From contig CAMXCT020000826.1 of NCBI GenBank assembly GCA_947184155.2, positions 1-64,000 on the forward strand: 64,000 nt of DNA. Reading direction: 5' to 3'. The position numbers were made by a program, and so were the translations under genes. This document shows, piece after piece, positions 2,611 to 49,046 of the stretch. The notes under the pieces were generated by a model that saw only the letters and a program-made list of their open reading frames with translations, was not told the origin of the DNA and did no database searches. This stretch comes from Cladocopium goreaui. Lineage: Eukaryota; Sar; Dinophyceae; Suessiales; Symbiodiniaceae. Within the stretch, counting starts at the first letter, position 1. Each line of letters opens with the position of its first letter.

Positions 2611-2793
2611 AAGCCCTCCTGAGATTGCTAAGGATACAAACAAGAAAATACATGTTAGCGCAATAGATTTGGCTTCTCATATCAGAAGTTGCAGTGCCTG
2701 AATCACCATATCACATCACACGCATCACATATCACACTGCAGATAGCTGCAAGTTTATGGTGTGTGTTTAGAATCGGCCACCGCTGTGACTTG

Positions 2794-17258: not shown

Positions 17259-20200
17259 ATGATGCCAGGAAGTAACCAGGGACAAGGACCTAATGGCCAA
17301 GGTAGTGCGCTAGGAATGAACTCACTGCATGTAGGACCAGTAGGGTCGCCAACGATGAACAGAATGGAAGGAGGAGGTGAGCAAGGCGTAGAAAGAAACA
17401 CAGGTGCTGCAGGTAATTCGCCCACAGGTACTGCGATGCAAGGCAACACGCAAGCAGCAGTAGGAACTGGGACAGCAGCGACACAAGCGGCTCCGGGCTT
17501 AGTTGGTCAAGCTGGAAGCTTAGTTGGAACTGGACAGATGCTACCTCCTGCATGGAATACGTTTGGGTCATATGGACCGATGCGTGGTGGTTTGATGGAC
17601 CCACGAAACTATAGTCAAAACCAGGGTTTTCTGGGATGTCAAGGTCATGGATGTAGTGGTTGTACTGCATGTCAAGGGTATCCAGGTCAGGGTGTGCATG
17701 GACAAGGTCTGTTAGGACAAGGTCAGTTCGGACAAGGTCAAGGAGGACAAGGTCTGACAGGACAAGGTCAGGTAGGACAAGGTCTGCACGGACAAGGGAT
17801 GCCAGGACAAGGTTGCATGGGAACTGCAGGTCAAAGTGCCCAAGCTAGCACAGGTAGAAGTCAAGAACCAGGACAGGGGAGTGCATGTTATGGAATGCCA
17901 TGGATGTCAGGTCATTGCGGTGGTGCCCCAGGTCAAGGAGGACAAGGTCAGGTAGGACAAGGTCAAACTGGAGGCATGTGCATGGGACCGGACATTGGCG
18001 GAGTAACACCCCAAAATCAAAGGTTGCAAGATGTGCTGAGGCTGATGGGAGGTTTGGAACCGATGCAGTTAATGCAAGTCAGGCAGGTGATAGGTGAACA
18101 GGTTGGCCAGGCTAGAGGTGTACCTGAGATGTTTGGACAAAGAGCCACAGGGAGTTTCCCCCAAAGCATGGACCCATTGCATGTTCCAGGTTCTTCTGGT
18201 GAGTATGTAGGCGATGTGTTCGCAAAAAGTGAGAAATGGTTAGGAACCCCTCCAACACCAGATTGTTCGAAGTGGAACAGTAGGGAAGCAGAAATCCTAG
18301 GGTGGCAAGCTTACATCTATGATTTAACAGCCTGGGCGATGCAAGCCAGCCTTGAGTTCGGAAGTGAAATCGAGCATGCCTGTAGATGGCCAGATCCGTT
18401 GCACTGGAATCAATTAGCTGTGCCGCAACGTGCAAGAAGCAGAAGGTTGCTTGCTATTTTGAGAAGTGCGTTTGGAAATCACCCGAGAACTTTGACGTTG
18501 ATCAATGCATTCAGTGAAGGGATCAACTTGTGCAATGCGGATGTGGGTGTGAATGCAGAGTTGCAAGCTTCGAATGGCTTTGAGCTGGTGAGACAGCTGA
18601 CCCTTGAGTACAGCATCAGGACGAGGAGTGAGGCACTTAGTTTTAGAACGGCATTGGCAGGAAAGTCTTTTGCACTGCATGGAAACGAAACGAGTGCAAG
18701 TACGATTGTGACAGATACAATCAGAAAGATAGACTTTGAAATGGCCAGGTATTCTAAGTTGCTGGGAACACTGTCAAGTAGAATTGATGCCACAGGGTTG
18801 CATGTAGCCGAAGCTGACTTGGTAGCTGTTTTGCTACGTAGTTTGCCTGAAGCAGTCAGGACGTTTTGTTTGCATCACACTGGAGGTGAATCGTACCAAG
18901 CTTTTAGGGCCACAGCACTGAGATGGGAACAACAGCAGCGTGCTTTCGCTGAGTTCCACCCCAAAAAGAATCTATACCAGGTCACCCAGGTGGAAGGTTC
19001 AGATGAATCCACTGTGCAATATGACATGTCTGCAAGTGATGGTGATGGAAACTGGAATTTAGATGCAGTAGGGGGTGTGCGATGTGGTACCTGTGGAAGT
19101 AGGAGACACAGTTCAAATGCATGTGATGTTGATTTGTCAAAACTGAAGTGTTTCAAATGCCAGAAATTTGGCCACATTTCTGCAAATTGCCCAGAGAGAA
19201 AGAAAGGAAAAGGAGTAATTAAGGGCAAAGGAAAGCAGAAAGGGAAGAAAGGCAAAGGCAAAGGTAAAGGTTTTGGCAAGAAAGGAAAAATGAACGAAGT
19301 AGGATACGATGAAGAATGGGACAGTGCGGACATGTGGTGGCATGACGATGGCTCTTGGTGGGAAGACCAGTCATGGTATGAAACTGCACAGGTCTGGAAT
19401 GACAGTTGGAATGAATCTTGGGATAGCACGTGGCATGAAGGACAAGAAACTTGGGACGAGTCTTGGAGTTGGCCTGCAGTCGAGGACCAATCGCAGAATT
19501 CCACTGCAGGTGGACAGACCCAAGGTGTGCAGTCACTGGTGCTTAGCCCCTTGATTTCCGAGATGTTTTCAGGTTTTTCGACAAGTTTGACACTTGAAAC
19601 TGAAATTTCAGATGCTTTTGATGATGTTTGCAGTCATTTTTCAACCGATGAAACTGTTTTTCATGTCTCAATTGCAGGTTTGCAGTGTTTAGAGTCGAAT
19701 CGACTTTTCTGCACGTGTCAAAACTGCATGACTATTAGTGATGATTTTGCAGCGAACATGGAGTGCTGCCAGCTTCGAAACGTGAGACTGAAACTCTTTT
19801 TCAACAGGTTGCCACCAGCATGTTTTATTTCTGAACCTGAGTTTTTCATCAGTGGAGAATTCGTTCCATTTTCTGACAGTGAATCTGCATGTTCAGTTGT
19901 CATGGACACCATGTTTGGAGACGAGTTTGATGACAGTGACAGTGAAACTGAAACGGAAACAGAAACGTGTCAACTTTGGAATTTAAACTTTGGATGGTTG
20001 CATGAATCAACACCACAGGTAGATTCCAATTTGCTGTGTGGCATGTTTTCAGCAGGAAACACCGACCTTTCAGGGACCACTGACAGTTCAGGGACGTTGC
20101 ATGGAGCCCTACATCGTCCGGTGGCCTTTGATTATGGTTTGCAAGGTGTAGAGGTAGAAGGTGATGCTGAGGTTTCCCAAGATTTGATTTCTTCAAACTG

Positions 20201-23200
20201 TCATCGAATTCAGTTGCAAACAGTTGGAACTTCGACTTTTCTGAACGTGCATGATACTGTTTCTCATGAGTTTGAACTGCATAGATACTCACCTGTTTTG
20301 CATCCATTGCTTTCAGAAATCATGATGGGTGATGAGAGCCAGCACTGGTGGTTACTGGACTCCGGTGCGGCCGCAACTGTTATGGCCACTTCGTCAAGAG
20401 TGACGTATGGTGCATGGGTTGTTAATTCACAAAGTGACCGCTTCCGAGCGGCAAATGGCAGTAAGGTGAATATAGATGGATCAACTACTGTTTCTGTTTG
20501 GGTTGGATTCAAGAAGAAAGCAGATAATTTGGGAAGATTCCCAGTGTACCGACAGGCAAAGTTGAAGTGCTTAGTTGGTGGCATCAGCCACAACATCATT
20601 TCAACCAACACTCTCTGTGAGTGCGGATGGGAATTCAATCAGAATCCAGAAGGTGCCGAAGTTACTCATCTTGCGTCAGGTCTGAGACTTGACAACATTT
20701 GCAACTTTGGTGGATGTCCATGGGTTAAACTTGACCCTGCATGGATGTACCGTGATTCTGATGGATCTGCACGGCATGATGATGAATTCATCATGTCAGA
20801 GGGTTTGCATGCGGTGCATGGGAATTTGAATCCATTGAGCAGAGCGGCTGAAGCTGCGCTTGAAGCCCATAGGTTGCAGGGACATGTGCCTTATGATCCA
20901 AGGTGCACTATATGTGCACGAGGAAAATCAACCTTTCAGCATCGACGCCGACGCGAGGGCGCGCTTGAGACTGAGGTACAGGCCGACTTTGGCTTTCTAA
21001 CCACTCGTGGAGAATTGGTTGAGGACGAAGCAGACGGAACTATCAAGATTTTGGCTTTAACGGAATTGTCTACGAACTGTGTAGGTTATGTGGTTGTGGG
21101 ACCAGAAGCAAGATCGGTAAAAGGTTTAATTCAAAAATGGTTAGACCACTTTGGTCTTGCATCATCGACTTCGTCGGTAGTCCTGCATACAGATGCCGAG
21201 CGTGCAGTTTCGGAATTAGTTGGAACCAGTTCTGACAAATATACCTTCTTGGTTCGCTGTGCACGACCTCAACAACACCAAAGCAATGGAGGAGCTGAAC
21301 GAGCTGTGAGAAGATTGAAGGAATCCCTTGCTGTGTTGCGTGCTGAGATGAACCAGGGTGGTGCTGATGTCTGGTTTACTGCACGTGGACTGCAAGATGT
21401 TGCAACCTACATTGCATTGAGCCACAACCATTTTTCCAAAGCTCATGGAACTGACTTTTCTCCATTGGAATACTCTACACAACGAAAGTTGTCTCGACCT
21501 TCCTTTGCAATGTTTGGTCAAACTGTCCTTGCCGAATTGCCCAGCAGCATGCGAGCCCAATCACCGAATGAGACGAGAAGTATTGAAGCTGCATTTGTGC
21601 ATTCAGGTTTGGATACTGGACCAGTTGTGCAAGGTGCTGTCAGAATTGATGGTGAATTAGTTCTGAAGCGCTTTGTTGCAAGGAATGTCAAGCCAATCAC
21701 ACCAATAGTGTGGAACCAAGTCATTGGGGATCAGTTGTTTTCTGAGATTGAAGGTGGACAAGTTCAAGGAGAACCATTGCCAGCACGCGAAGGAATTCGC
21801 ATTGAGCCGGCTGCCCCGAATGTTGAAAGACCAAGATTGCCTGATGCCAATGTTGAGCAACCTATGCATGATGATGTTGTTGAGTACCCAGATGGTGCTC
21901 CAGGTGACTTAGTGCGAGAAATGAAAGAACCTGATCCAGGCTTCCGAGCCCCTATGCCAAAGAAGAGACCGGTGGAGTCAGCTCCATCTCAACCGAGAAA
22001 GCCAGGTGAATTGAAGATTGCCAGACAAGACCCAATTCGTGCATCTACTTCTGATGGACCTGCATTGCCTAAAGCGTCTCCGAAAGTGTCACCAAAGTCT
22101 CCGTCTCCGTCTCCAGATGTTGCTAGGTCAGATGTGCGTGTTTTTCCAAAGACACCCCGGTGTCCTGCATGTGATTCTGGAATGGATGTACCTGGAATTA
22201 GGCATAATGCTGAATGTAAGAGAAAACGTGCTGCATTTGAGGCGAGTGAAACTCCCGTTGTAATGCCAGATGGTGTGCCTAATGTTGCAAGACCGAGACT
22301 TGAGGTGAGACATGAAGATATGGAGGTTGAAACTGAGAGTGGCCCAACTCCGGTTGGCGCAGGTTCTGAGGAGGTTGGTCTAAGTATGGACACTGAAGGT
22401 TCAGGTGTGAAGAGAGAAGCTGAACAGTCTGTGCAAGATCTAGAGGATGAAATGGCTGCTGAACGTGCGGCTGGAACTCAAAAACCCATGACTCTTGATC
22501 TTTTTCACATGGACAATGCATGTCATGCCTTAGGACCTGTTGCATGGTGTTTGGAACAAGGACCAGAGAATGCACGAGCCACGAGTCCTGAGTTGTTTGA
22601 CGCTGAGCTTAATTCAATTAAGTTTGCACAAGGGAAGGATCATCAGTGTGTGAAGGTGAAACTTGGTGGTTCAGAAGTGCTGTTATGGAAACCAGATGAA
22701 GTGATTGATGACAGCTCACTCATGCAACTTGACGTGGACCTAGGTTTTGAGGGTATGAAAGAGGAAATTGGTAATTTAGAGAAATGTGGTGCTGGTAGGG
22801 TCATAGGACAGGCAGAGGTTGATGCATTGAAAAAGAAACACCCGCTCATGCGTGTGATTCCAAGTAGATGGGTTTCAGCATACAAAAGTGAATCACGAGT
22901 CAGAGTCCGAATAGTTGCAAAGGACTTGAACAAAGGAATTAGTGCACGAAAGCTGGGAATTTCGAGCCCAACACCAAGCATTGAGGGCCTGCATTTCGTT
23001 CTCACTCTTGCTGCCCAACGTGCTCTTCGACTGAAAGGACTTGATGTTTCCCACGCCTTCATGCATTCACCTCTTCCTCATGGACTTGTGATTGTGCTGA
23101 AACTGCCCCTCTCCGTCTCTATGCCTGATGGCTCACAAGCCTACTTGTTGCTCTACAAAGCCTTAAATGGTCTTCGAGATGCATCGCTGCACTGGCTGAA

Positions 23201-23435
23201 TTTGCTGAGTGACAGCATCCGTGGTGTTGGATTGACTTCTGACGAGGTCGAACCATGCATTTATCAAGGTGTTGTGAATGGAGAACTTGCACTGCTTGTC
23301 GCATATGTGGACGACCTACTCCTTTGTTGCCAATCAGAGAAAGCTGAGAAGATCGTGGAGAAAGCAATTGGCAAAGCCGTGCCCTTGAAGGAGACGGAAT
23401 CATCCTTCCTGCACGACATGGAGGTGGACGTTTAA
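17259..23435 (+). CDS. Copia-type Gag-Pol polyprotein (Gag, protease, integrase, reverse transcriptase)
   Basis: ATG 17259 lies 45 bp past the LTR. Residues about 130-235 are Gly/Gln-rich repeats (GQGQFGQGQGGQG). A CCHC zinc knuckle, CFKCQKFGHISANC, is at 631-644, followed by a Lys/Gly stretch and a Trp/Asp/Glu/Ser-rich segment. The aspartic protease motif is LLDSGAA with Asp 1034. The integrase has an HHCC-like zinc region (HRLQGHVPYDPRCTIC) and acidic residues Asp 1243, Asp 1312 and Glu 1347 (35-residue D-E spacing). RT motifs include KGLDVSHAFMHSPL, ALNGLRDASLHW and YVDD at 2016-2019. The frame ends early at TAA 23433-23435: after KET (about 23394) the homology moves to another frame, consistent with loss of one base. 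The frame is otherwise intact for 2058 residues. Confidence 0.93.
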   Translation: MMPGSNQGQGPNGQGSALGMNSLHVGPVGSPTMNRMEGGGEQGVERNTGAAGNSPTGTAMQGNTQAAVGTGTAATQAAPGLVGQAGSLVGTGQMLPPAWNTFGSYGPMRGGLMDPRNYSQNQGFLGCQGHGCSGCTACQGYPGQGVHGQGLLGQGQFGQGQGGQGLTGQGQVGQGLHGQGMPGQGCMGTAGQSAQASTGRSQEPGQGSACYGMPWMSGHCGGAPGQGGQGQVGQGQTGGMCMGPDIGGVTPQNQRLQDVLRLMGGLEPMQLMQVRQVIGEQVGQARGVPEMFGQRATGSFPQSMDPLHVPGSSGEYVGDVFAKSEKWLGTPPTPDCSKWNSREAEILGWQAYIYDLTAWAMQASLEFGSEIEHACRWPDPLHWNQLAVPQRARSRRLLAILRSAFGNHPRTLTLINAFSEGINLCNADVGVNAELQASNGFELVRQLTLEYSIRTRSEALSFRTALAGKSFALHGNETSASTIVTDTIRKIDFEMARYSKLLGTLSSRIDATGLHVAEADLVAVLLRSLPEAVRTFCLHHTGGESYQAFRATALRWEQQQRAFAEFHPKKNLYQVTQVEGSDESTVQYDMSASDGDGNWNLDAVGGVRCGTCGSRRHSSNACDVDLSKLKCFKCQKFGHISANCPERKKGKGVIKGKGKQKGKKGKGKGKGFGKKGKMNEVGYDEEWDSADMWWHDDGSWWEDQSWYETAQVWNDSWNESWDSTWHEGQETWDESWSWPAVEDQSQNSTAGGQTQGVQSLVLSPLISEMFSGFSTSLTLETEISDAFDDVCSHFSTDETVFHVSIAGLQCLESNRLFCTCQNCMTISDDFAANMECCQLRNVRLKLFFNRLPPACFISEPEFFISGEFVPFSDSESACSVVMDTMFGDEFDDSDSETETETETCQLWNLNFGWLHESTPQVDSNLLCGMFSAGNTDLSGTTDSSGTLHGALHRPVAFDYGLQGVEVEGDAEVSQDLISSNCHRIQLQTVGTSTFLNVHDTVSHEFELHRYSPVLHPLLSEIMMGDESQHWWLLDSGAAATVMATSSRVTYGAWVVNSQSDRFRAANGSKVNIDGSTTVSVWVGFKKKADNLGRFPVYRQAKLKCLVGGISHNIISTNTLCECGWEFNQNPEGAEVTHLASGLRLDNICNFGGCPWVKLDPAWMYRDSDGSARHDDEFIMSEGLHAVHGNLNPLSRAAEAALEAHRLQGHVPYDPRCTICARGKSTFQHRRRREGALETEVQADFGFLTTRGELVEDEADGTIKILALTELSTNCVGYVVVGPEARSVKGLIQKWLDHFGLASSTSSVVLHTDAERAVSELVGTSSDKYTFLVRCARPQQHQSNGGAERAVRRLKESLAVLRAEMNQGGADVWFTARGLQDVATYIALSHNHFSKAHGTDFSPLEYSTQRKLSRPSFAMFGQTVLAELPSSMRAQSPNETRSIEAAFVHSGLDTGPVVQGAVRIDGELVLKRFVARNVKPITPIVWNQVIGDQLFSEIEGGQVQGEPLPAREGIRIEPAAPNVERPRLPDANVEQPMHDDVVEYPDGAPGDLVREMKEPDPGFRAPMPKKRPVESAPSQPRKPGELKIARQDPIRASTSDGPALPKASPKVSPKSPSPSPDVARSDVRVFPKTPRCPACDSGMDVPGIRHNAECKRKRAAFEASETPVVMPDGVPNVARPRLEVRHEDMEVETESGPTPVGAGSEEVGLSMDTEGSGVKREAEQSVQDLEDEMAAERAAGTQKPMTLDLFHMDNACHALGPVAWCLEQGPENARATSPELFDAELNSIKFAQGKDHQCVKVKLGGSEVLLWKPDEVIDDSSLMQLDVDLGFEGMKEEIGNLEKCGAGRVIGQAEVDALKKKHPLMRVIPSRWVSAYKSESRVRVRIVAKDLNKGISARKLGISSPTPSIEGLHFVLTLAAQRALRLKGLDVSHAFMHSPLPHGLVIVLKLPLSVSMPDGSQAYLLLYKALNGLRDASLHWLNLLSDSIRGVGLTSDEVEPCIYQGVVNGELALLVAYVDDLLLCCQSEKAEKIVEKAIGKAVPLKETESSFLHDMEVDV

Positions 23436-25057
23436 TTTTCATTGGCAGGCATGTGCATCGTGGAATTGATGACGACTCCTTGACGATTGGGGTGGATCCA
23501 AAGTTTTTGGACACGACCTTTACTGAATTCAACATCACGAAAGGATCTGCATCTGTGCCGGATGTAGCCGGCATTTTGGACAAGGCCATGGGTGACAAGA
23601 ACCAATTGCAAGAGCTCTCTCCCTCTGCATATTCACGATTTCGCCGAGCACTTGGCAAGCTTCTGTGGATGGCTCAGTCTAGGCACGACCTGAAACTGTA
23701 TCTCAGTCTAATTGGAAGTCAGCAAGCAAAGCCAAACCAAGGCACTGAAGCTGCCATTCGTTCTTTGCTGCGATTTCTGTTTGAAGATGTGGGAACATGT
23801 TTGAGGTTACCATCCCCAGAATACGAGAATTTGATGATTGGGCCTGCAAGACATTCAATTTTGCATTCATTCTCTGATGCATCGTTTGCTCCATACAGAT
23901 TCAATGGTAGAAAAGGGATTTCCGGTGGAGTTGTGTTCTGTGAAGGTGCATTGGTTAGGTCATTGGCTAGACAACAGCAGTCTGTGTCACTGTCCTCTTG
24001 TGAAGCAGAGTTGTATGCATTGCAAATGGTTGCCCAAGAATATGTTGCGTTTAGCAATTTTTGCCATCGTGTTTACACAGGGATTGGTGAAATGAGAGAG
24101 AGAGATGTGCCACAAATCTTGCTGGAGTCAGATAGCTCTTCAGCCTTGCAATTGTTGGTCGGACAGGATATACCCAAACGAAGTAGACATGTTGAAATTC
24201 GTATGGCCTGGATGAAAGCTAAGATTAGCTCAAATGAACTTTTGGTTGAACACAGGGCCGGAACGGACAATGTGGCAGATTTGTTTACCAAATGTTTGGG
24301 GACCAAAGATTTCCTGAGACACCGCACAAGCTTAGGGTTTGAGACTCCCGAAGTGCCTATGCAAGACCTGCACAGAGTTCGTGATGTCATGCTCATCAAC
24401 AGTAGGGTTGATCACAAGCAAGATGTTGCGTTTGTGGAAGTTTGTTGTGGGACTAATTCAGCTCTGAGAGAAGCATGCAAAGTTGCACGCATGCCCTATA
24501 TCGGTATAGTCAAACGAATGGAAACTCCGGACATGTTTCAAAAGGTGAAAGAGTTTGTTGAGGTTCACCAACAGTTAGGCTACCGTTGGGTGCATGTGCA
24601 CGCTTCTACTCCTTGTAGCTCAGGGTCGCCACTCAAGAATTTTTCTGCAACGATCGAATCAGAGGCAGACAGGTCATGGAAAGGTATCATGGAGAACGTC
24701 TCTAAGTATTTGTTGCTTGGGAATTCGAGGTCTTTCGAACTGCCCCGAAACAACAACATATGGAAACGCGAAGAGACCAAACGAGTTTTGAAACAATGTG
24801 GTTTGCAATTTGATGCTGAGGTGTTTTTATGTCAAACCGGTATGCAAGCACCGAATGGATTGCCTATCGGTAAAGTGCTTATCTTTTGTAGTGCGTCAGC
24901 TGGTTTTTGCAATTTGCTCACAAGGCGTTTTGGTTGGTGCGAGTGTGAGAAACATGCAGGGATGTACGATGTCAACTGGACAGCAACCGGTGTGTATAAC
25001 AAAGAACTGGCAAAGGCCATTTTGGCCGCAGTTCGTGCTGGAAGGAAGGACCCCTGA
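23394..25057 (+). CDS. Copia Pol 3' part: RT end, RNase H and methyltransferase-like domain
   Basis: Continues pol in another frame. Around 23420-23450 it reads GGGRLIFIGRHVHRG, the usual RT end of copia elements. RNase H follows with FSDASFAP (first Asp), SLSSCEAELYAL (Glu), ESDSSSALQLL (Asp) and TDNVADLFTKCLG. In a count from 23453, residues 326-534 are not a normal copia feature. AFVEVCCGTNSALREAC at 326-342 looks like methyltransferase motif I, HASTPCSSG with Pro-Cys at 387-388 like the catalytic PC loop, and RSFELPRNN near 426-434 lies where an EN(V/P) motif would be. Weak support for an active enzyme: the motif I region has one glycine and ELP replaces ENV. TGA 25055-25057. It is one ancestral polyprotein with the preceding feature. 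Confidence 0.85.
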
Positions 25058-36269: not shown

Positions 36270-36420
36270 GAAATGAGGGTCGATCGGCAAAAACTGAGAT
36301 AAAATTGCGGGTTTATTTGTGCCGGAGCAACCCTTTCGCACGAAATGAGGGTCGATCGGCAAAAACTGAGGTGAAATTGCGATTTTTCGTGTGCTGGAGT
36401 AACCCTTTCGCACGAAAAGG
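36270..36420 (+). repeat. Tandem duplication, about 72 bp x 2
   Basis: AAATGAGGGTCGATCGGCAA through AACCCTTTCGCACGAA occurs twice in succession with a few changes. Confidence 0.85.
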
Positions 36421-36925
36421 GATTTGTGTGTACGAGCGTTTCTGTGTAAAGATGTTTGTGTGTAAAAGTGTTTGTGTGTACAAGTGCATCTGTATAAAAG
36501 TGGTGTGTGTAAAACCTTCCGTATGTTCAAGTCTTTGTGTGTAAACGGGTTTGTGTGTACGAGTGTTTCTGTGTAAAGAAGTTTGTGTGTAAAAGTGATT
36601 GTATGTAAAATTGCATCTGTTTAAACGTGATTGTGTGTAAAAGCTTCTGTGTGTACAAGCGGTTGTGTGTAAAAGCAGCTCCTGTGTGTAAAAGGGTCTG
36701 TGTGTAAAAGTGTCTGTGTGTAAAGGCTTCTGTGTGTAAAAGTGTCTGTGTAGAAGCGTCTGTGTGTAAAAGCTTCTGTATGTAAAAGCTTCTGTGTGTA
36801 AAAGCTTCTGTGGGTAAAAGCTTCTGTGTGTAAAAGCTTCTGTGGGTAAAAGCTTCTGTGGGTAAAAGCTTTGTGTGTAAAAGCTTTGTGTGTAAAAGCG
36901 TCTGTGTGTAAAAGTGTTTGCGATG
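36421..36925 (+). repeat. TGTGTGTAAAAG minisatellite
   Basis: About 30 degenerate units of 14-16 bp with core TGTGTGTAAAAG and tails such as CTTC, TGTC or TTTG. The most regular part is 36740-36900. Frames through it give repetitive FYTQKLLHT-type peptides and are not genes. Confidence 0.9.
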
Positions 36926-37022
36926 CAAACTATTGTCTTGCACTTCTCACTATTTTGTCTTGATACTCCTCTTCTCGACTGCCTATAACACAGCTTTCAA
37001 ATATCGTTTCTAATATTGCGTC

Positions 37023-37580: not shown

Positions 37581-38353
37581 GAATGCGTTTAGCTTGCTAA
37601 TAGCTGTTTATAGCTTAGGGTGAAAGCGAACCATGTGAGCGCCCTCCAAACCAAAAAAAAGTTTCTGAGAAACTTTACAGTGCGCGTTGCCTAACAATGT
37701 TTAATTCGAACTGTTTTTTTAAAAAAAACTGAAACAAACAAACGTGAAACCTCACAGGTGTGCAGGTACATGTGGTACATGTCTCACATGTTGTTTCAGT
37801 TTATTTTGTCGTGTGAAATCATCTTTCATTATCTGGTAGGTGATCACTTATGAATTTTATATATGACCGCGTCGCCTCAAGTGAGGAGGGTGGGCGGGTG
37901 TGCCCTTTTGATTTCATTGTGTTTGCCCCTCCCAATCGTGGCGTGCACGCTTTTCCCAACCCTTTGCAAACAATGTACAACACAACGTAGGGGGGAAATG
38001 TGAAAGAATCCAAATGTTGGAGCTATGCAACATGTCACAAAGTGACTGTGGAACACATTCACATGTGGTGGTGTGTATGCGATGTATGTTGCGTTTGATA
38101 TCCCCCTTGACTGCCAAGCGGAAAAAGAACAGCTGAGAACTCATGACGGCATGTGCAATTTTATTTTTGAGATTTGTGAACCGTGAGGGAGAGAGGAGTG
38201 TCGTGTCGGTCGTCGTGTTTATGTTTTGGTTTACATAGGTTTTATTATGTGGATGTGTACTCCCATATACCATGTTTATGTTTGGCGTATATGTTTATGA
38301 TACATATGCGTAGGCCGCGCACGTTGTGTAGGAGGGTCACCCTGTAGCTATAA
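37581..38353 (+). repeat. Short terminal unit, left (773 bp)
   Basis: GAATGCG...GCTATAA; nearly identical to 43792-44569. Its first part recurs at 38354-38700 and its last part at 43429-43791. It contains a TTTCTGAGAAACTTT palindrome and AGGTACATGTGGTACATGTC near 37765. Non-coding. Confidence 0.95.
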
Positions 38354-38700
38354 GAATGCGTTTAGCTTGCTAATAGCTGTTTATAGCTTAGGGTGAAAGC
38401 GAACCATGTGAGCGCCCTCCAAACCAAAAAAAAAAGTTTCTGAGAAACTTTACAGTGCGCGTTGCCTAACAATGTTTAATTCGAACTGTTTTTAAAAAAA
38501 AAACTGAAACAAACAAACGTGAAACCTCACAGGTGTGCAGGTACATGTGGTACATGTCTCACATGTTGTTTCAGTTTATTTTGTCGTGTGAAATCATCTT
38601 TCATTATCTGGTAGGTGATCACTTATGAATTTTATATATGACCGCGTCGCCTCAAGTGAGGAGGGTGGGCGGGTGTGCCCTTTTGATTTCATTGTGTTTG
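38354..38700 (+). repeat. Left internal repeat of the coding unit
   Basis: Matches 37581-37925 with a few indels in homopolymer runs, then diverges at CATTGTGTTTG|TCACATG. A leader of 305 bp without a gene follows to 39005. Confidence 0.95.
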
Positions 38701-39005: not shown

Positions 39006-40208
39006 ATGAGTTTCGGCGATAGTGAAGCCGTCTTCGCACAGAGGGCTAGGGAGATAGGTCTTGATGATGGAGCCGTGAAAGCTCTTACAGATGAAGGTAT
39101 CAGGACGATGGCACTTTTTGCCTTCAGTTGCAACTTTGCGCCGGGAGCTGCAGATGAGCGTCCTTTCACTGATTTGATCAAGAAACTTTTGCATAGAGAC
39201 CCTAGCACTTTGGAGTTGTCATGCATGAGGCGATTGTTCAATGAGAGTTACGCCAACATAGCTTCAGACATCAAGGTGAGGTCAGAGGCTACAGACGATA
39301 CGCCGGTGAGGCGCCTAGCCCCTGCGGAACGTGCCAGCAGGTTGAAAGACCAACAGCAGAGACTTGGAGGTCTGAGCATCACTGGACAGTACGAGCCTGG
39401 AGACACCTTAGTGGACAAATGCATCAGCATTTATGACAGTGACAGGTTACAGTATGTGGAATGGTCTGCATCGGTGTCACGTGAACATGAGCTTTTGTCA
39501 GGGACGAAGAAGGATGCCTCACTTACTTTTGACTCATCGGGTTCACTCAAGTTGTCAAAGCTTCAAAAGACAGAACCTTGTTCGACAGGAACCGAGATAC
39601 AGGTGCGCTATTGCTTGGTTAGGCGCGCTTTGGCCTTCGACCAGGCGAACCTGATTGAGTTCAAGTTGTTGGAGGCTTGGAGTGAAAAATTGATGCAGAG
39701 CAGATTAGAAGACCCGGCACCAGGCTATGCCAGGACAACCATGAAACAACTTGAGCTTGCTGACAGGAAATTGTTTTGCGTGCTTGCTGAGAAAACCAGG
39801 GAAGGTATCAAAACCACCATCAAAGGCAGACCTCTTGACCTGGTGTTCAAGGAATGTTCAGAAAGCTCAGAAGTCCTTGCGTTGTTGCAGCCCAGACAGG
39901 GTACAGTCTCGGCGGAAAAGGTGAAGGAGGTGCGTGGCAACTCAGCAGAACCACCCACCAAACGAATCAAACGAGAGACTGGAAAGAAGGGCAAGGGCAA
40001 AGGTAACAGCAGTGCTTTTGTGCGTATTCCACACGATCTACTGAAGCTGAACTGTGTTGCAGCTACACCCAAAAACAACAGGATTTGTTTTTCTTACAAC
40101 TTGAAGAAGTGCGATGCAACTGGACAGAAGTGTTCAAAGGGGTTGCATGTGTGTGCAGTACAGGGATGCTTCAGAGGACACCCAGCTGTGGAATGCCAGA
40201 AGTCGTGA
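39006..40208 (+). CDS. Gag-like protein of the inserted YR element (400 aa)
   Basis: ATG 39006 to TGA 40206-40208. A mostly helical N-terminal part (DDGAVKALTDEGIRTMALF) is followed by a basic linker (PPTKRIKRETGKKGKGKG) and a C-terminal Cys/His cluster, CFSYNLKKC then GQKCSKGLHVC and CFRGHPAVEC, which could bind zinc and RNA like a Gag nucleocapsid. DIRS-group elements place gag first, as here. The stop codon is followed by CTA and the next frame is open without another stop, so readthrough into the polymerase is possible. Confidence 0.75.
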   Translation: MSFGDSEAVFAQRAREIGLDDGAVKALTDEGIRTMALFAFSCNFAPGAADERPFTDLIKKLLHRDPSTLELSCMRRLFNESYANIASDIKVRSEATDDTPVRRLAPAERASRLKDQQQRLGGLSITGQYEPGDTLVDKCISIYDSDRLQYVEWSASVSREHELLSGTKKDASLTFDSSGSLKLSKLQKTEPCSTGTEIQVRYCLVRRALAFDQANLIEFKLLEAWSEKLMQSRLEDPAPGYARTTMKQLELADRKLFCVLAEKTREGIKTTIKGRPLDLVFKECSESSEVLALLQPRQGTVSAEKVKEVRGNSAEPPTKRIKRETGKKGKGKGNSSAFVRIPHDLLKLNCVAATPKNNRICFSYNLKKCDATGQKCSKGLHVCAVQGCFRGHPAVECQKS

Positions 40209-43200
40209 CTAATACCTTCTGGCTGTCAGTCCCTTGGTAGAGCGTTGGAATCCGACGCAATGGAGACAGCATCCGAGGGCGAGCCAGCAGAGGTCATGCA
40301 TGATGACACAACGAATTCTTTTTCAGATACACCTGCACAGGAGAATTTTTCAGATGTTGAGAAAATTTGCCACACGGGTACAGAGGCTGACAGACCATAT
40401 GTCTTCTTGGAATTATGCGCTGGAAGTGCAACCTTGTCTGCAGAGGTTAAGCGTTTGGGAGTCGAGGTGCTGGCCTTTGACCACGAGTCCAACCGACATC
40501 AATCAAAGTGCAAGGTCCTTTGTTTGGATCTTAGTTTGCCGCATGCTTTCGAACGCATTGTTGAGCTGGTGACTAAATGCAATGTGTTGGGCGTTCACAT
40601 GGGGCCGCCCTGCGGCACGTGCAGCAAAGCCAGAGGGATACCTATGCCGGATGGATCGGCGGGACCCCAACCGCTTAGAGATGACAATTATTTGCTGGGT
40701 CTTCCAAATCTGGGATTTCGAGACAAACAAAGGGTAACTGCTGCAAATAATTTATATGAGAAGCTTGGTTTGCTGGTGGAGACGCTGGAGCGCCTTCAAA
40801 TCCCATGGACAATCGAGAACCCCACCAACAGTTTTTTATGGGACCTTCCGTATTTTGCTTTTGCAATGGCCCATGGTACCAAGCATGACTGTCACGCTTG
40901 CGCTTTTGGGAGCTCGAGGAAGAAGCTGACTTCCTTCCTTTCGAATCGAGATGAATTTGGAGCATTGTCGAGGTTCTGCCAAGACGTGGCGCCACATGAA
41001 CATGAAAGCTGGGGCTATGACCATGTCAACAAATGTTTCAACACTGCAAAAGAGGCTGAATATCCAACGATGATGTGCCAACAATATGTAAGGGTGTTGC
41101 AGAAATTCCTGGACACAGACCTCCTTCCAGGACAGTCAGTCCGCAGGTTGCCACAATCACAGCCAAAGGGTCGGAAAACGCCCCAGCTGATCCCTGAGTT
41201 TTTGGACGTCACAACTTGCATGCTAGAGTCTGTGCCGGCCTTGGACCACAAACGAAATCTGCTGAAAGCCCATGGCCCCATACCTGCAGGCAGTCGGCTG
41301 TTGAGAACTGAAGCGGACAAGGGGAGATCAGAGAAAGTTTTGTGCGTTTTTGGGATTTACCGCAGCATGTCGCAATTTGTTGAATGTGCAAGGTCGTTGT
41401 GGCACCCCTTTGATGAGTTACGAAACTTGCCTGACAGAATGATCAAAGCACTTTTTAGCAACCTCACTGAGTCCCCTCACCAGTTGACAAAGTTGCGTTG
41501 CCAGTTCTTGCGGAAGTGGGCGAGCAGGGCCTCCATCTTACAGAAGGCCGAACTGGAAGTACATGAGCGCATGCCTCAACATGTGCGAAGAGTCATGGAA
41601 GGGAAAAGAATCCTTGTCATGGAAGAGTTGGCCAAAGAGATGGGTTGGCCAGACATGCAATTGTTCTCAGAGTTGCGAGAGGGCTTCAAGCTCGTTGGTA
41701 CCTTCGAAACTACAGGCATTTTCAAGGCTGGTGTGACACTTGCGAACATCAGTGAAGAAGAGCTTGAGAAGAATACAAAATTTTTGCGTCCTGCCATTTT
41801 GGGAAGACTGAAGAACTTCGAAGATGCTGAGCTGCAGAAGGAATTGTTTGAAACAACCATGAAAGAAGCAATGGAGAAACACTGGCTGGAAGGACCTTAT
41901 GAGGTTGAAGAGATACATCGCCAACTAGGTGACAAGTGGCTTCCGGTGAGGAGGTTCGGAATCATGCAGCGTGACAAGCTGCGACCAATCGACAACTTCA
42001 AGGAATCGATGCTGAACCTGACCTTCGGATGTTACGAGAAGGTTGAATTGAAAGCGATGGAACACGTGCTGTGGATGTTGGTTACCTTGGCCAGATACAT
42101 GAGACACTTTGGTGAGATCAAGTTTGTGCTTTGCGATGGGACCCTTTTGGAAGGGCACGTGCATCCTGCGTGGAACAAGGTTGCTTTTGGAATGGAGGCC
42201 ACGTGTGTGGACATGAAATCTGCCTACAAGCAGTTACCACTGAATCCATGCGAATATCACCGCACCGTGGTCAGCCTGTGGGATGTCAATAACAGAAAGG
42301 CAGCTTGCTTTCTAATGCGCACCCTTCCATTCGGTGCCACGGCAAGTGTGCATCACTTTTTACGAGTCAGCAGTTTCATACATGCTGTAGGACTTCATGC
42401 TGGTTTGTGCTGGGGAGCGTATTTTGACGACTTCCCAACCCTGTGCAACGTAGCCAACAGGCGCAGCACCCAGTCCACCGCATTGGGTATTTTCGAGTTG
42501 CTGGGCTTCAAGTACAATGACGAAAAACTGGACCCCTTTGACAAAGTGGCATCAATGTTGGGGGTGGAGCTTGACCTTCGAGAGATAGACAATGGCTTGA
42601 TCAAGGTTCAGAACAAACCTGCGAGAGTCACAGAAGTGTCGGAGTGCTTGAATAGGATTTTAGACAGTGGGGTTATTGAAGCTGACTCACTGCCTTCCTA
42701 TCTGGGGAAGCTACAATTTGCAGAAGCTCAGCTGTGGGGTCGTGCGGGTAGAATCGCTCTTGCAGACCTGAGAGAAGCTACGCTACATAAAACCGGAGCC
42801 TTCGCAGTCACAGAAGAAGCAAAGGAAGCCATTGAAGTTTTGTTGGAAAGATTCACAACTGGACGACCGAGAGAATTGAAAGCCTCGGTGCCTTGCAGAC
42901 CACATTTGCTGTTCACTGATGGAGCACTGGAATACGACGAATTGGGAAACCCTAGTGCCAGCATAGGTGGTGTTTTGATTTGCCGAGACGGAAGAGTTTT
43001 GTGTTTTGGATGTGACGTGCCGCAACAGTTGATGGACTTGTGGCAGGTCAGTGGCAGGACCCATGTTATAGGCTTGGTGGAGCTGTACGCTGCTGTGACT
43101 GGCTTACATACTTGGAGAGAGATTTTCAAAGATGATAGAGTCATTTTGTTTACAGACTCCTGGCCTGCTTACGATGCTGTGGTCAAGGGCACGGCTGGAG

Positions 43201-43415
43201 TTAAAGAATGGCGGCAGCTATTGCTTGTTTTGGAAAAGACGGACGAGAGCCACCCCATGCACTTGTGGACCGCCAGAGTCCCATCGACCTCCAATCCAGC
43301 TGATCCTCCCAGCAGAAGGAACATTTCCGATTTAGCTTTCCTTGGAGACATAACCATAATAGATGCAGAATGCCCTGTGGTGAATACTTTCTTGAGATCT
43401 TACGAAATGGTGTAG
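40209..43415 (+). CDS. Methyltransferase-like / reverse transcriptase / RNase H polyprotein
   Basis: The same frame as gag is open from 40209; the first ATG is 40260. In a count from 40245, residues 50-290 form a methyltransferase-like domain: VFLELCAGSATLSAEV (motif I, 53-68), LAFDHE (motif II), GVHMGPPCGTCSKARG with Pro-Cys at 122-123 (catalytic-loop position), and TIENPTNSFLW with Glu-Asn-Pro at 191-193 (motif VI). RT follows with VDMKSAYKQL (Asp 656), TLPFGATASVHHFL and YFDDF (726-730). RNase H shows FTDGALEYDE (Asp 892), LVELYAAV, LFTDSWPAYD and NPADPPSRR. No integrase, protease or recombinase is present. DIRS-group elements often carry an adenine-methylase domain after RNase H; here the domain is N-terminal and has a cytosine-type PC loop. 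Intact and therefore probably recently active. Confidence 0.88.
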   Translation, partial: LIPSGCQSLGRALESDAMETASEGEPAEVMHDDTTNSFSDTPAQENFSDVEKICHTGTEADRPYVFLELCAGSATLSAEVKRLGVEVLAFDHESNRHQSKCKVLCLDLSLPHAFERIVELVTKCNVLGVHMGPPCGTCSKARGIPMPDGSAGPQPLRDDNYLLGLPNLGFRDKQRVTAANNLYEKLGLLVETLERLQIPWTIENPTNSFLWDLPYFAFAMAHGTKHDCHACAFGSSRKKLTSFLSNRDEFGALSRFCQDVAPHEHESWGYDHVNKCFNTAKEAEYPTMMCQQYVRVLQKFLDTDLLPGQSVRRLPQSQPKGRKTPQLIPEFLDVTTCMLESVPALDHKRNLLKAHGPIPAGSRLLRTEADKGRSEKVLCVFGIYRSMSQFVECARSLWHPFDELRNLPDRMIKALFSNLTESPHQLTKLRCQFLRKWASRASILQKAELEVHERMPQHVRRVMEGKRILVMEELAKEMGWPDMQLFSELREGFKLVGTFETTGIFKAGVTLANISEEELEKNTKFLRPAILGRLKNFEDAELQKELFETTMKEAMEKHWLEGPYEVEEIHRQLGDKWLPVRRFGIMQRDKLRPIDNFKESMLNLTFGCYEKVELKAMEHVLWMLVTLARYMRHFGEIKFVLCDGTLLEGHVHPAWNKVAFGMEATCVDMKSAYKQLPLNPCEYHRTVVSLWDVNNRKAACFLMRTLPFGATASVHHFLRVSSFIHAVGLHAGLCWGAYFDDFPTLCNVANRRSTQSTALGIFELLGFKYNDEKLDPFDKVASMLGVELDLREIDNGLIKVQNKPARVTEVSECLNRILDSGVIEADSLPSYLGKLQFAEAQLWGRAGRIALADLREATLHKTGAFAVTEEAKEAIEVLLERFTTGRPRELKASVPCRPHLLFTDGALEYDELGNPSASIGGVLICRDGRVLCFGCDVPQQLMDLWQVSGRTHVIGLVELYAAVTGLHTWREIFKDDRVILFTDSWPAYDAVVKGTAGVKEWRQLLLVLEKTDESHPMHLWTARVPSTSNPADPPSRRNISDLAFLGDITIIDAECPVVNTFLRSYEMV

Positions 43416-43428
43416 CTGAAGCAGACGA

Positions 43429-43791
43429 GGGGAAATGTGAAAGAATCCAAATGTTGGAGCTATGCAACATGTCACAAAGTGACTGTGGAACACATTCACA
43501 TGTGGTGGTGTGTATGCGATGTATGTTGCGTTTGATATCCCCCTTGACTGCCAAGCGGAAAAAGAACAGCTGAGAACTCATGACGGCATGTGCAATTTTA
43601 TTTTTTGAGATTTGTGAACCGTGAGGGAGAGAGGAGTGTCGTGTCGGTCGTCGTGTTTATGTTTTGGTTTACATAGGTTTTATTATGTGGACGTGTACTC
43701 CCATATACCATGTTTATGTTTGGCGTATATGTTTATGATACATATGCGTAGGCCGCGCACGTTGTGTAGGAGGGTCACCCTGTAGCTATAA
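43429..43791 (+). repeat. Right internal repeat of the coding unit
   Basis: Matches the 3' part of the short units from GGGGAAATGTGAAAGAATCC to GCTATAA and starts 13 bp after the polyprotein stop, so no room remains for a recombinase gene. Confidence 0.95.
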
Positions 43792-44569
43792 GAATGCGTT
43801 TAGCTTGCTAATAGCTTTTTATAGCTTAGGGTGAAAGCGAACCATGTGAGCGCCCTCCAAACCCCCCCCCAAAAAAAAAGTTTCTGAGAAACTTTACAGT
43901 GCGCGTTGCCTAACAATGTTTAATTCGAACTGTTAAAAAAAAAACTGAAACAAACAAACGTGAAACCTCACAGGTGTGCAGGTACATGTGGTACATGTCT
44001 CACATGTTGTTTCAGTTTATTTTGTCGTGTGAAATCATCTTTCATTATCTGGTAGGTGATCACTTATGAATTTTATATATGACCGCGTCGCCTCAAGTGA
44101 GGAGGGTGGGCGGGTGTGCCCTTTTGATTTCATTGTGTTTGCCCCTCCCAATCGTGGCGTGCACGCTTTTCCCAACCCTTTGCAAACAATGTACAACACA
44201 ACGTAGGGGGGAAATGTGAAAGAATCCAAATGTTGGAGCTATGCAACATGTCACAAAGTGACTGTGGAACACATTCACATGTGGTGGTGTGTATGCGATG
44301 TATGTTGCGTTTGATATCCCCCTTGACTGCCAAGCGGAAAAAGAACAGCTGAGAACTCATGACGGCATGTGCAATTTTATTTTTGAGATTTGTGAACCGT
44401 GAGGGAGAGAGGAGTGTCGTGTCGGTCGTCGTGTTTATGTTTTGGTTTACATAGGTTTTATTATGTGGACGTGTACTCCCATATACCATGTTTATGTTTG
44501 GCGTATATGTTTATGATACATATGCTTAGGCCGCGCACGTTGTGTAGGAGGGTCACCCTGTAGCTATAA
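43792..44569 (+). repeat. Short terminal unit, right (778 bp)
   Basis: Nearly identical to 37581-38353; differences are mainly C/A homopolymer lengths and isolated substitutions. The host recombinase sequence resumes at 44570. Confidence 0.95.
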
Positions 44570-45412
44570 TTATACCCGGCTTTTGCTGTTGACTTCTTGC
44601 TGACTGAGGTGGGCACGGATTTGAATCGGCCCCTTTTTCTCAGGCCTATGCCACGGGATCGAGGCTTGCAGCTCTTGCGCTACTGGTTGTGCAAGTGTCA
44701 CGAAGCTCACGGTGTGGTGGCTAAGCCTGAGGATTTTCATCTTTTGGGGACTCATTCATGCAAGACAACATTGCTATGCTGGTCACAACAACTGCAACTG
44801 TCTTTGGAACAGCGTCAATTGCAAGGTCATCATAGATCTGCTGTGAATGGTTCGGTCGCCTTGTACAGCAGGAATGATACATTGCCAGCACTCATGCTAC
44901 AATGCACAGTTGCACAACGAATTGCAGAGGGGTTCAGACCTCTTCGACCCATGTTGAGGAGTGGCTCGCCGTCACTGCCGGATTTTTCAATACAGCTCCC
45001 ATCTTGGAAGCCACTTGCATTCCAGGTTGAACCCAAGTCAGATGTGCAGGATTCAGTGCCAGCACCACCTCCCGAGTCAGTGGAGCCAGATGCCCCTCAG
45101 GATGATGATGGGTCAGAGGCATCGGAAGCTTCAGCGGTGAGTGAAGTCATGGATGAGCCATCCGCACTTGCTCCTGAGGAGTTGATTTTTCTGGTGAACC
45201 CAGTCACGAAGGTTGCCCATTTGGCTATACAATGCTCCAGTTCGGATCGAGCCATGTGTTATGAGGATTCCAATTTACAGCCATATCGTACTGGCTGTGG
45301 TGCCCGTCCCAATGCGATATCCGGTGATTTGCAATTCACCCATTGCTTGCCTGAAGGTGCCAGATTTTGTTTGCGTCGAGCCTGTGCCAGGATCATGTCA
45401 CAGGTGATTTGA
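44570..45412 (+). pseudogene. Tyrosine recombinase gene, 3' part
   Basis: Resumes the recombinase interrupted at 37580 (LYPAFAVDFLLTEVGTDLN). It shows the HxxK box GTHSCKTTLLCWS, then LQGHHRSA with the second histidine, and ALYSRND carrying the likely nucleophilic tyrosine. Beyond the catalytic domain lie an acidic linker (PDAPQDDDGSEASEAS) and a Cys/His-containing tail (HLAIQCSSSDRAMC, RTGCGARP, FCLRRAC) to TGA 45410-45412. Together the parts would encode a full R-K-H-H-Y recombinase, probably that of the YR element whose RT-RNase H lies at 45836-46984. It is disrupted in this copy. Confidence 0.78.
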
Positions 45413-45835: not shown

Positions 45836-46984
45836 TCACCCAGACGGTGGCCCTTCTCCTGGCATGGATTGCTCCCAAGGGTGAAGCTGCCATGGATTGG
45901 ATGGAGTATCAATGTCAAGCGTTGGGTGGTATCTATCACCCCGGACAAGCGTGCCAAGATCCTGGACCAGATTGATTCCTTACTGAGATCATCTCGCTGT
46001 GATCTGAAGACTTTGGAGTCCCTCACCGGGCGATTGCTTTGGGTCTCATCCCTCTGGGAAACCTTGCGACCGTTATTGGGCCCATTGTACCAGGCCATGA
46101 TGACTGTGCCTTTAACTTTGGTTTCAATTTCACCTGAGCAGTGGCCTCTTCTTCTTGATGCCTTGCAGGATGACCTCACACTCTCCAAAAGTTTGCATCA
46201 CCCGTCCTTGCGTAAGAATGTGAAGGTGGTGCGTGCAGCGAGTTTCACACTCCGTGACCTTGGCCATGCCAGATCGTTGCACTTCAAATCGAGACGTATT
46301 TGGTTAGGTATCAATATACCGGGTTCCAGCAAGCGAAAACTTTTGCAAGAAACCCATGAATCCCTTCAAGCCTGGAAGGATGTTCTTGTTGGCACACTTT
46401 TTTTGCACAACATGATCCCACCGACATACCTTCCTCTCCAAGCATCTGCAGATGCATGCGCTACTCAAGGAGAGGCTGGCTTAGGTGGCATCCTTAGACT
46501 GAATGGGGAAGTTGCTGCTTGGTTTGCCTTCACGATTTCACATGCTGAAGCGAAAGACGTTTTTCCTTGGATCTCTGACTCCATGCAGAAGCACATAAAT
46601 GTTTGGGAATTACTGGGCCAATTTGCTTTGGCGTTTTGTTTGGATCGTGCGTTGAAGGGTCGTTGTACCCCCATATCTGTCACGTTTGCCTGTGACAACA
46701 CATCGGCAGAAGCTGCTCACCTGAAAGCCTTATCTACGGCTTCGGGCATGTGCCATGTTTTAGCAGCTTTCTTCAGATTTCAACGCATTCACAACCTGGA
46801 CGTTTCGATCCAACATATTCCTGGCATGTGGAACGATGAAGCAGATGCCCTGAGTCGTGGTAAGCACCTACCACATTGCACTCCAGAACTCCAGGTTGAT
46901 GTCCCATGGACCTGGCTGTGCTCATCTCTTCCAGAACATTCACCATCAAACGCCAAATTTCCGCACACTTTGTTGACCCGCTGA
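45836..46984 (+). pseudogene. YR-retroelement RT 3' part and RNase H
   Basis: The frame opens after a stop at 45833-45835 with PFSWHGLLPRVKLPWIGWSI, the RT connection typical of DIRS-group elements (W-x-G-W). LESLTGRLLWVSSLWETLRP and LGPLYQAM follow. RNase H is present: ASADACATQGEAGLGGI (Asp), INVWELLGQFALAF (Glu), FACDNTSAEAAHL (Asp) and WNDEADALSRG (Asp), then TGA 46982-46984. All four acidic residues remain, but the RT palm is missing, so it is not functional as it stands. It lies in the same orientation as the split recombinase and probably belongs to the same element. Confidence 0.8.
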
Positions 46985-47104: not shown

Positions 47105-47350
47105 GTGAATTCCCGTCTGGTGTTCACGAACTGTTCGATTTAATTTTGTACTGCTGTGCATTTGACATTCATTTAGTCCGACGACTAATCTTCGCCACGC
47201 GTAAAAAGAATTTGGCTGTTTTTGCGAATGCGCCTTTTGAATCCCTGCTGGAATATTTTCTGTTTTATGGCGTTTTATTTTCTCGGGTTTCTAGATTTTA
47301 TCTCTCTACGTCACCCACAACTTGAGCAACGGAAGGCTAACTAGTGAACT
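47105..47350 (+). repeat. Direct repeat pair, first copy (246 bp)
   Basis: GTGAATTCCC to TAGTGAACT, repeated at 47551-47796 with two substitutions found by eye (CCCTG/CCTTG and GGAATA/GGGATA). The 200 bp between the copies would be the middle part of a B1-A2-B2 terminus of a PAT/Ngaro-type element. Confidence 0.92.
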
Positions 47351-47550
47351 GTACTCGAGATTGATCGGTGTTGTTCACTTGTTTGAAACCGGCCTCTGTT
47401 TTGCAAAACCCCTGTTTCAGACCTTCTGGTTTTGAATGGTTTCTCCTGTTGGGTTTTGCTTGGGTGATCCGGTTTTATGGATGCCATTTTGGGTCAAGTT
47501 GTGGTGTGTGGTAGACCGCGTTTCTACGTTAGTTTTCCTTTCCCACCACC

Positions 47551-47796
47551 GTGAATTCCCGTCTGGTGTTCACGAACTGTTCGATTTAATTTTGTACTGC
47601 TGTGCATTTGACATTCATTTAGTCCGACGACTAATCTTCGCCACGCGTAAAAAGAATTTGGCTGTTTTTGCGAATGCGCCTTTTGAATCCTTGCTGGGAT
47701 ATTTTCTGTTTTATGGCGTTTTATTTTCTCGGGTTTCTAGATTTTATCTCTCTACGTCACCCACAACTTGAGCAACGGAAGGCTAACTAGTGAACT
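47551..47796 (+). repeat. Direct repeat pair, second copy (246 bp)
   Basis: Ends exactly where RNase H-like coding sequence of another element resumes, so this is the likely right boundary of the YR element carrying 44570-46984. Confidence 0.92.
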
Positions 47797-47798
47797 TG

Positions 47799-48480
47799 GA
47801 TGAAACTCAATCTATTTGGAATTGGATTGGGGATGATATGCACAAGCACATTGCTGCGTGGGAACTGCTTGCCCAACTTGCATTGAACATTCAGCATCCA
47901 GTCGTCATTGCCCAAAACCAAGGGGCCAGTGGCCTGTCATCAGGCAACTGACAACAGCACAGCTGATGCAGCCTCCGCCAAGGGACTGACTATGACCAAA
48001 GCACTTGCAGTCATGTTTCCACCATACTTCACACTCATGAGGAGATTTCAATTCTTTCCACACATTTCGCATATCCCTGGGCGCCTCAACGTGCTGGCAG
48101 ATGAGGTGAGCCGCTTCAAGCAGCACCTGTCGACACCTCTGGATCCTGATGGAAGAATTACCATTCCTTGGAAAGAATTGCTTTGCTCTTCTGGCATTCA
48201 AGTGACCCAGAACGGTCGAAAGTGGCCGTCACATTTTAACATTCAACCGCGTGACAAAAAAGTTGCTGCAGTCAGCAGACTGGGTGCCTCCATCGATTGT
48301 TTTTTGGGGAATTCATACTCCGGCTGGTCGATTGTCGATAAAGTTTGGTGCCTTGGGAATTCCCCACCTAAATGTGTCGATCTTAACATACCCCGTCTTC
48401 TGGGTTGTTTGATCGGGTTTGCGTTGGGGTGCATCCATCTAGGTCAGTCTGTACAAACTGGACCCGCTGGTTCTTTCTAG
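47799..48480 (+). pseudogene. RNase H fragment of a second YR retroelement, frameshifted
   Basis: Reads DETQSIWNWIGDDMHKHIAA and WELLAQLALN in one frame, then after a shift near 47890-47910 CHQATDNSTADAASAKGL and GRLNVLADEVSRF (last acidic motif). It ends at TAG 48478-48480. It is homologous in plan to RNase H at 46430-46860 but clearly a different family. The left boundary coincides with the end of the 246-bp repeat, so its upstream part was separated by the insertion. Confidence 0.7.
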
Positions 48481-48626
48481 CATGTACAGAGTTTGACCTG
48501 ATTGTTGCACCACGCCTTAACACGAAATATGCACTCTTGCGGCAGCCTGTTGTGTTGAATGTGCAGTTGTAACTTAATTGGATATTGGGAAACGGAAACT
48601 GAAGCAACGGAAACCATTGCGTGAAC
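48347..48626 (+). repeat. Second direct repeat pair, first copy (280 bp)
   Basis: GGTGCCTTGGGA to CATTGCGTGAAC, repeated at 48773-49046 (about 274 bp) with scattered substitutions and a 6-bp indel (GGAAAC). It overlaps the end of the RNase H frame. Probable B1 part of the second element's terminus. Confidence 0.9.
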
Positions 48627-48772
48627 GTGTCATGTACGTGTACATAGGTGTTCATGCATAGGACCCGGAAGTTCATGCCTGGTCCGTTGCCGTTTTTGCT
48701 TCAAGTTTCCCACGCTCTTTTCGTTTTCCCACCACCATCCGATATGCTCAACCATTATGTGGCATTTGAGGT

Positions 48773-49046
48773 GGTGCCTTGGGAGCTCCCCACCTAAATG
48801 TGTCGATCTTAACATACCCCGTTTTCTGGGTTGTTTGATCGGGTTTGCGTTGGGGTGCATCCACCTAGGTCACATTGTACAAACTGGACCCGCTGGTTCT
48901 TTCTAGAATGTACAGGGTTTGACCTGATTGTTGCACCACGCCTTAAAACGAAATATGCACTCTTGCGGCAGCCTGTTGTGTTGAATGTGCAGTTGCAACT
49001 TAATTGGATATTGGGAAACTGAAGCAACGGAAACCATTGCGTGAAC
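48773..49046 (+). repeat. Second direct repeat pair, second copy
   Basis: See 48347-48626; 146 bp separates the copies. Probable right end of the second YR element. Confidence 0.9.

Follow-up and report, generated by a model that had tools for sequence, protein, structure and literature searches.

The locus raises the question of what is encoded at the N-terminal end of a reverse transcriptase (RT) and RNase H frame in a tyrosine-recombinase (YR) retrotransposon of Cladocopium goreaui, and what such a domain would do for the element. An earlier note, made from the letters of this DNA, had proposed a C5-methyltransferase-like (MT) domain ahead of the RT. The window, which is the whole stretch of 64,000 nucleotides that was analysed, was compared with itself, with the genome (1.17 Gb, 6202 contigs), and with sequence, profile and fold collections.

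Anatomy of the element

The features of the element, all on the forward strand, are as follows.

37581..38353, +, additional A-x-B terminal repeat on the left side (98.0% match to 43792-44569)
38354..38700, +, repeat A, 5' end of the element (98.8% match to 37581-37925)
39006..40205, +, gag-like ORF, 400 codons, with a C/H-rich motif at the C terminus
40206..40208, +, single in-frame TGA (TGA CTA) dividing the gag-like frame from the MT-RT-RNase H frame
40209..43415, +, MT-RT-RNase H frame including the stop codon (open 40209-43412, 1068 residues)
40386..41174, +, C5-methyltransferase-like domain (modelled span residues 60-322, core roughly 62-310)
40605..40616, +, motif IV, PPCG at residue 133, with catalytic Cys135
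40815..40829, +, motif VI, ENPTN, with Glu203
42420..42434, +, RT motif YFDDF (residues 738-742)
42909..43322, +, RNase H region (LFTDGA, VELYAA, LFTDSW, ADPPSR; motifs from residue 901 on)
43429..43791, +, repeat B, inner (99.4% match to 44208-44569)
43792..44141, +, repeat A, 3' side (self-comparison)
44208..44569, +, repeat B, outer, right end of the element (self-comparison)

Self-comparison of the window gave the layout A-x-B, A, coding region, B, A-x-B, which contains split direct repeats of the tyrosine-recombinase retrotransposon type; the order A-coding-B-A-B was found in the window element and in one further copy, L021. The A-x-B unit at 37581-38353 adjoins the element on its left, an arrangement that would fit a tandem of A-x-B units with the element inside it. 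The ORF at 39006-40205, which had no Pfam match, is taken to be gag-like from its position and its C/H-rich motif. The MT and RT domains are located in one Pol ORF. The RT had a weak match to Pfam RVT_1 only (E 0.0068), with xxDDx kept in 27 of 27 genomic copies; the four motifs LFTDGA, VELYAA, LFTDSW and ADPPSR, presumably those of RNase H, were conserved across the same 27 copies, and their region in the window frame had no Pfam match. The Dam-type adenine methylase of DIRS elements is positioned after RNase H; the frame in the window stops approximately 30 residues past the last RNase H motif, which leaves no room for a methylase there, in agreement with the earlier note. The Dam-type enzymes are similar in that a DNA methylase lies within the Pol of a YR retrotransposon (PMC5890265, PMC6338049); they differ, as far as the available text of these papers describes them, in being of the adenine type and unrelated to cytosine enzymes, whereas the domain described here is of the cytosine type and precedes the RT.

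In the 10-kb stretches around 20 further copies, a relative of the gag-like ORF was located upstream in all 20, preceded in 19 by a recombinase-like ORF; none was present in L021 or in the window element. The recombinase-like ORF was split into several pieces in L009, L013, L014, L019 and L024. It carries GRLRxSD, THSxK, LGYH and YSRD, which were read by eye and are assumed to be the tyrosine-recombinase boxes R, HxxK, GxH and Y; no integrase match was obtained for it in Pfam or PHROG. Repeat B..B followed Pol in 18 of the 20 copies, and the 5' repeat A was seen in two (L009, L021), the other 5' ends lying mostly beyond the 10-kb stretches. The window element is 99.8% identical to L009 across 5.3 kb and, since at the junction 38704/38705 its repeat A is joined directly to the sequence 3' of the recombinase ORF in L009, it is without approximately 2.3 kb that includes this ORF. 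The recombinase ORF of L009 is itself broken.

Other repetitive sequences were found near the element. To the right, window 44597-45412 holds a recombinase-like fragment, in which 44744-44965 is 36% identical to the recombinase of the family, and 45869-46984 holds an ORF resembling an RT/RNase H remnant; together these are perhaps another YR element, the host of this insertion. A minisatellite of 16-base units and two near-identical direct-repeat pairs of 246 and 252 bases lie at 36411-36931, 47105-47796 and 48346-49046. More distant second YR-type elements adjoin three of the copies (query-strand orientation: L010, 7896-10000; L026, 7590-9998; L017, 7854-9872); those in L010 and L026 also have MT motifs, and the second piece in L017 has an RT from a different family (27.6% identical).

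Fold and catalytic residues of the methyltransferase domain

The structure predicted for residues 60-322 (pLDDT 93.6) had a methyltransferase fold, and all 50 of the matches listed in fold searches with the model were C5-methyltransferases, results that uphold the proposal of a C5-type domain before the RT. The motifs ELCAG, PPCG and ENPTN are located at residues 68, 133 and 203 of the frame. Conservation was assessed in 86 relatives, comprising the window domain, two genomic copies and 83 database proteins. The motif IV Cys was kept in 85 of the 86 and in 27 of 27 genomic copies, and the motif VI Glu in 86 of 86 and 27 of 27; the motif VIII-like Arg and the Lys were each kept in 85 relatives, and the motif II Asp and motif I Gly each in 83. 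The motif names are to be taken as our reading. PLCG occurs in one and LPCG in four of the 27 genomic copies, a set to which the window copy belongs; many of these copies are close kin, so the counts over the 27 are not independent. The domain is thus well supported as C5-methyltransferase-like with its catalytic residues.

Some features of the domain count against activity. Motif VI is ENP in place of ENV, the Gln of motif VIII is absent, leaving R-x-K, and the recognition region is very short; the literal motifs ENV and QxRxR, which we assume to be expected of PF00145 enzymes, are therefore absent from it. The CpG observed/expected ratio of the element coding region (0.60) did not differ from that of the whole window (0.64), so that no imprint of self-methylation is seen, a result that also counts against it. 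These deviations, the minimal recognition region and the missing imprint would all be accounted for by a catalytically dead domain that binds nucleic acid or has a structural task within Pol, a reading considered quite unlikely because the Cys, Glu, Arg and Lys and the residues of motifs I and II are nearly invariant down to approximately 30% identity, more than binding alone would require.

Family size, co-inheritance and selection

A genome search with the window protein (P0001; 43 of 5554 candidates scored) returned at least 44 matches at 43 places, the window included, 40 of them in frames of at least 1000 residues. With a distant relative (P0071; 104 of 4228 candidates scored) at least 104 were returned, 62 of them in frames of 1000 residues or more, and some were the same places as before. 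Two elements new in the second search, L048 and L049, have the same MT-RT-RNase H order with MT domains 35 and 33% identical to that of the window.

For 27 elements, the distances between MT domains correlated with those between RT-RNase H regions (r 0.968, reached in none of 2000 permutations). Every one of the 23 MT splits recurred in the tree of the RT-RNase H region, and the 15 splits with support of at least 0.9 showed no conflict. Mean identity over 21 elements was 0.51 for the MT and 0.53 for the RT, compared with 0.15 for the stretch before the MT. The dN/dS of the MT was 0.05-0.28 in 10 of 13 close pairs, those with synonymous change, the three values above 0.2 resting on dS of 0.01-0.04; synonymous sites in wider pairs were mostly saturated. 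These results point to a single acquisition of the MT in the element family, kept since by purifying selection. The suggestion of the earlier note that such domains had been recruited repeatedly is not supported within the YR class, where the trees agree. Chance or artefact as the source of the domain was ruled out by the fold, the copy number and the selection.

Class of the methyltransferase

Pfam detected no methyltransferase in the window protein at E≤1. The C5-methyltransferase profile PF00145 matched none of the 86 relatives at E≤0.1, and against 46 relatives gave one match only (E 0.29). In contrast, PHROG 757, annotated as a phage DNA methyltransferase, matched the window domain (E 8.4e-5) and 32 of the 46 relatives at E≤0.01. 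A tblastn search of 50,697 phage records returned 18 at E≤10, of which 17 were Lactococcus phages (best E 3e-4). Host DNMTs, phage enzymes, the copia domain described below and the MT domains were compared by profiles rather than in one joint tree, because approximately 15% identity would not carry one. The MT family matched the profile of three phage enzymes, a small and narrow set, with E 1.1e-7 (probability 94), as opposed to E 0.029 (probability 1.7, 65 columns) for nine PF00145 enzymes of the genome. The latter comprised window 2689-3924 and eight of ten genomic loci, L042 (prokaryote-like) and L043 (broken frame) being left out. The kinship that the earlier note had wished to see examined, with the enzyme at 2689-3927, is thus not borne out, that enzyme being of a different kind. 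NCBIfam returned nothing, and PDB sequences gave nothing for the whole window protein; a PDB search with the profile of the 46 relatives gave five matches up to E 10, of which two were methyltransferases, aligned over motif I only. When the family alignment was used to scan viral contigs and prokaryotic genomes, no relative was confirmed in either; each scan used the single pattern PCGT[CA]S[KRA]AR, so that distant kin such as the phage enzymes would escape both.

The PHROG 757 enzymes of the Lactococcus phages P087, PhiL.6 and ACM616_1 are similar in length (approximately 210-240 residues) and in their PPC, IENPxxSxxW and KKPT-like motifs, and the window domain matched the P087 protein by fold in BFVD (E 1.3e-10). 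They differ in being stand-alone phage genes without an RT fusion and are 22-26% identical across approximately 70% of the domain. Phages of the 936 type, which may or may not carry such an enzyme, count against the proposed cytosine methylation: in three of them, from Lactococcus, the only methylation reported was that of adenine (PMC4190342). An action on RNA, such as the element RNA or its primer, after the manner of DNMT2 on tRNA, would fit a C5 mechanism that also serves RNA, a domain that travels with an RT on genomic RNA, and a short recognition region; with the nearest sequence relatives annotated (by annotation, not assay) as phage DNA methyltransferases and the best fold matches being DNA enzymes, an RNA substrate is regarded as distinctly improbable.

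Retrotransposons of Symbiodinium that encode cytosine methyltransferases are known from the 2018 work of de Mendoza et al. (PMC5890265), whose available text describes SymbioLINE-Dnmt, SymbioDIRS-Dnmt3 and DIRS elements without a DNMT, and reports that SymbioDIRS-Dnmt3 methylated CG de novo in yeast. The window element could be SymbioDIRS-Dnmt3 itself, a host Dnmt3 captured by a DIRS element and merely too diverged for Pfam. As published, that element is also a dinoflagellate YR retrotransposon with repeats in the order A-coding-B-A-B, MT and RT sharing one ORF and the recombinase in another, old and under selection (PMC5890265). Moreover, DNMT3A heads the Foldseek list for the MT domain, which is the main fact against assignment to a phage-like, non-DNMT class. 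However, PF00145, which was among the Pfam search models of that study, misses the relatives described here, whereas PF00145 did detect the SymbioDIRS-Dnmt3 domain, whose affinity is with Dnmt3, a distinction drawn from the published description. The profile of the 46 relatives found no DNMT3 among PDB sequences up to E 10, the motifs are PPCG and ENP with profile kinship to phage enzymes, and all 125 PF00145 matches scored in the genome (123 of 2685 candidates scored) sit in frames of at most 558 residues. Identity with SymbioDIRS-Dnmt3 is therefore unlikely, and from the sequence comparisons we conclude that the MT domain is best regarded as a C5-type enzyme of a phage-like family and not a divergent descendant of the DNMTs seen in this genome. 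Among open-licence papers, preprints excluded, no paper on this domain was found, the 2018 study being the one on dinoflagellate retrotransposon cytosine methyltransferases. Element-borne cytosine methyltransferases had thus been described before; as set apart by published description, this class of enzyme seems to be new.

Two further observations concern PF00145 enzymes of the genome. Window 2689-3927 encodes one (E 4.8e-40), possibly as ORF1 of an element of the SymbioLINE-Dnmt type; three matches of almost equal strength lie elsewhere, on C553, C4048 and C3535. Contig C1 (7,377,000 bases; locus L042) has three PF00145 matches, the best of them bacterial-looking, and may be a bacterial chromosome within the assembly.

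The UGA between the gag-like and Pol frames

The gag-like and MT frames form one frame split by a single TGA in the window and in 20 of 20 further copies. The TGA is also present in L048 and in the second elements of L010 and L026. The base that follows is C in 15 of the 20 copies and the next codon CTA in 8, while no single codon closes these frames at their other end (TGA 13, TAA 4, TAG 3). The in-frame stretch upstream of the TGA has at least 400 codons in 18 of the 20 copies (219 in L019 and 137 in L024). The first Met after the TGA lies between codons 2 and 139; in L013 and L014 it is inside the MT, past motif IV, so that reinitiation at AUG would cost the catalytic Cys. Readthrough of the UGA is the simplest reading of these frames and is likely programmed. 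RNA folding downstream of the UGA gave no consistent structure in the 20 copies (z -3.8 to +1.3). The Candida element Tca2 is a known case of the order gag-UGA-pol (PMC2194720), and the available main text on SymbioDIRS-Dnmt3 makes no mention of a UGA between gag-like and Pol frames (PMC5890265).

A related domain in a copia element

A separate element in the window contains a second domain of interest.

24401..25054, +, C-terminal domain of a copia polyprotein, C5-methyltransferase-like by predicted fold

The C5-methyltransferase-like fold at the C-terminal end of this polyprotein is as the earlier note had claimed, and the Cys and Glu were kept in 32 of 32 sequences. The two copia frames, 17259-23435 and 23453-25057, do not share a reading frame. 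By profile the copia domain is distantly like the MT family (E 3.1e-5, probability 73; weaker with a wider set, E 2e-4, probability 46), and against the phage set (E 0.4) and the PF00145 set (E 0.33) it had no match. Unlike the YR-element MT, it follows RNase H, has ELP for ENP, lacks the motif II acid and is matched by Foldseek at only E 1.1e-3. Judged from these profiles, one superfamily may have supplied both domains in separate recruitments, or a single domain may have moved. Symbiodinium copia elements were described, in the available text of the 2018 study, as without any DNMT domain (PMC5890265).

Proposed role and significance

Most CG sites of Symbiodinium are methylated, and the available text of the 2018 study suggests that retrotransposon-borne DNMTs contributed (PMC5890265). 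Gag would be made first, and occasional readthrough of the conserved UGA would yield a Gag-MT-RT-RNase H fusion that places the MT in the replication particle beside the RT. There its most likely substrate would be the cDNA of the element itself, methylated at cytosines while reverse transcription proceeds or shortly afterwards, and the new copy would benefit from being already marked on entering a heavily methylated genome. That the domain looks cytosine-methylating and phage-like, and lies next to the RT, suggests that such elements may mark their own new DNA copies. The explanation that best joins the observations, and that we think probable, is an old and diverse family of DIRS/Ngaro type with a phage-type C5 MT at the start of Pol, UGA readthrough and cytosine methylation of its own cDNA. 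A fuller version, for which the chances seem about even, is that the domain represents a third class of retrotransposon cytosine methyltransferase, of phage or algal-virus origin and unrelated to Dnmt3, acquired once by an ancestor of a large dinoflagellate YR clade and kept since, with the readthrough fusion methylating nascent cDNA and a sister domain in copia.

A search of the PF00145 type misses this domain, so elements like this one would probably have been counted as DNMT-less in the 2018 study. If a class invisible to standard profiles sits in many intact DIRS-like and copia elements, 'DNMT-less' elements cannot serve as a clean control, and methyltransferases carried by elements have so far been undercounted. 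Whether the element marks its own cDNA can be approached directly through the conserved UGA and the catalytic Cys. If the interpretation is correct, methyltransferases that standard profiles have missed may be carried by much of the retroelement mass in genomes of this kind.
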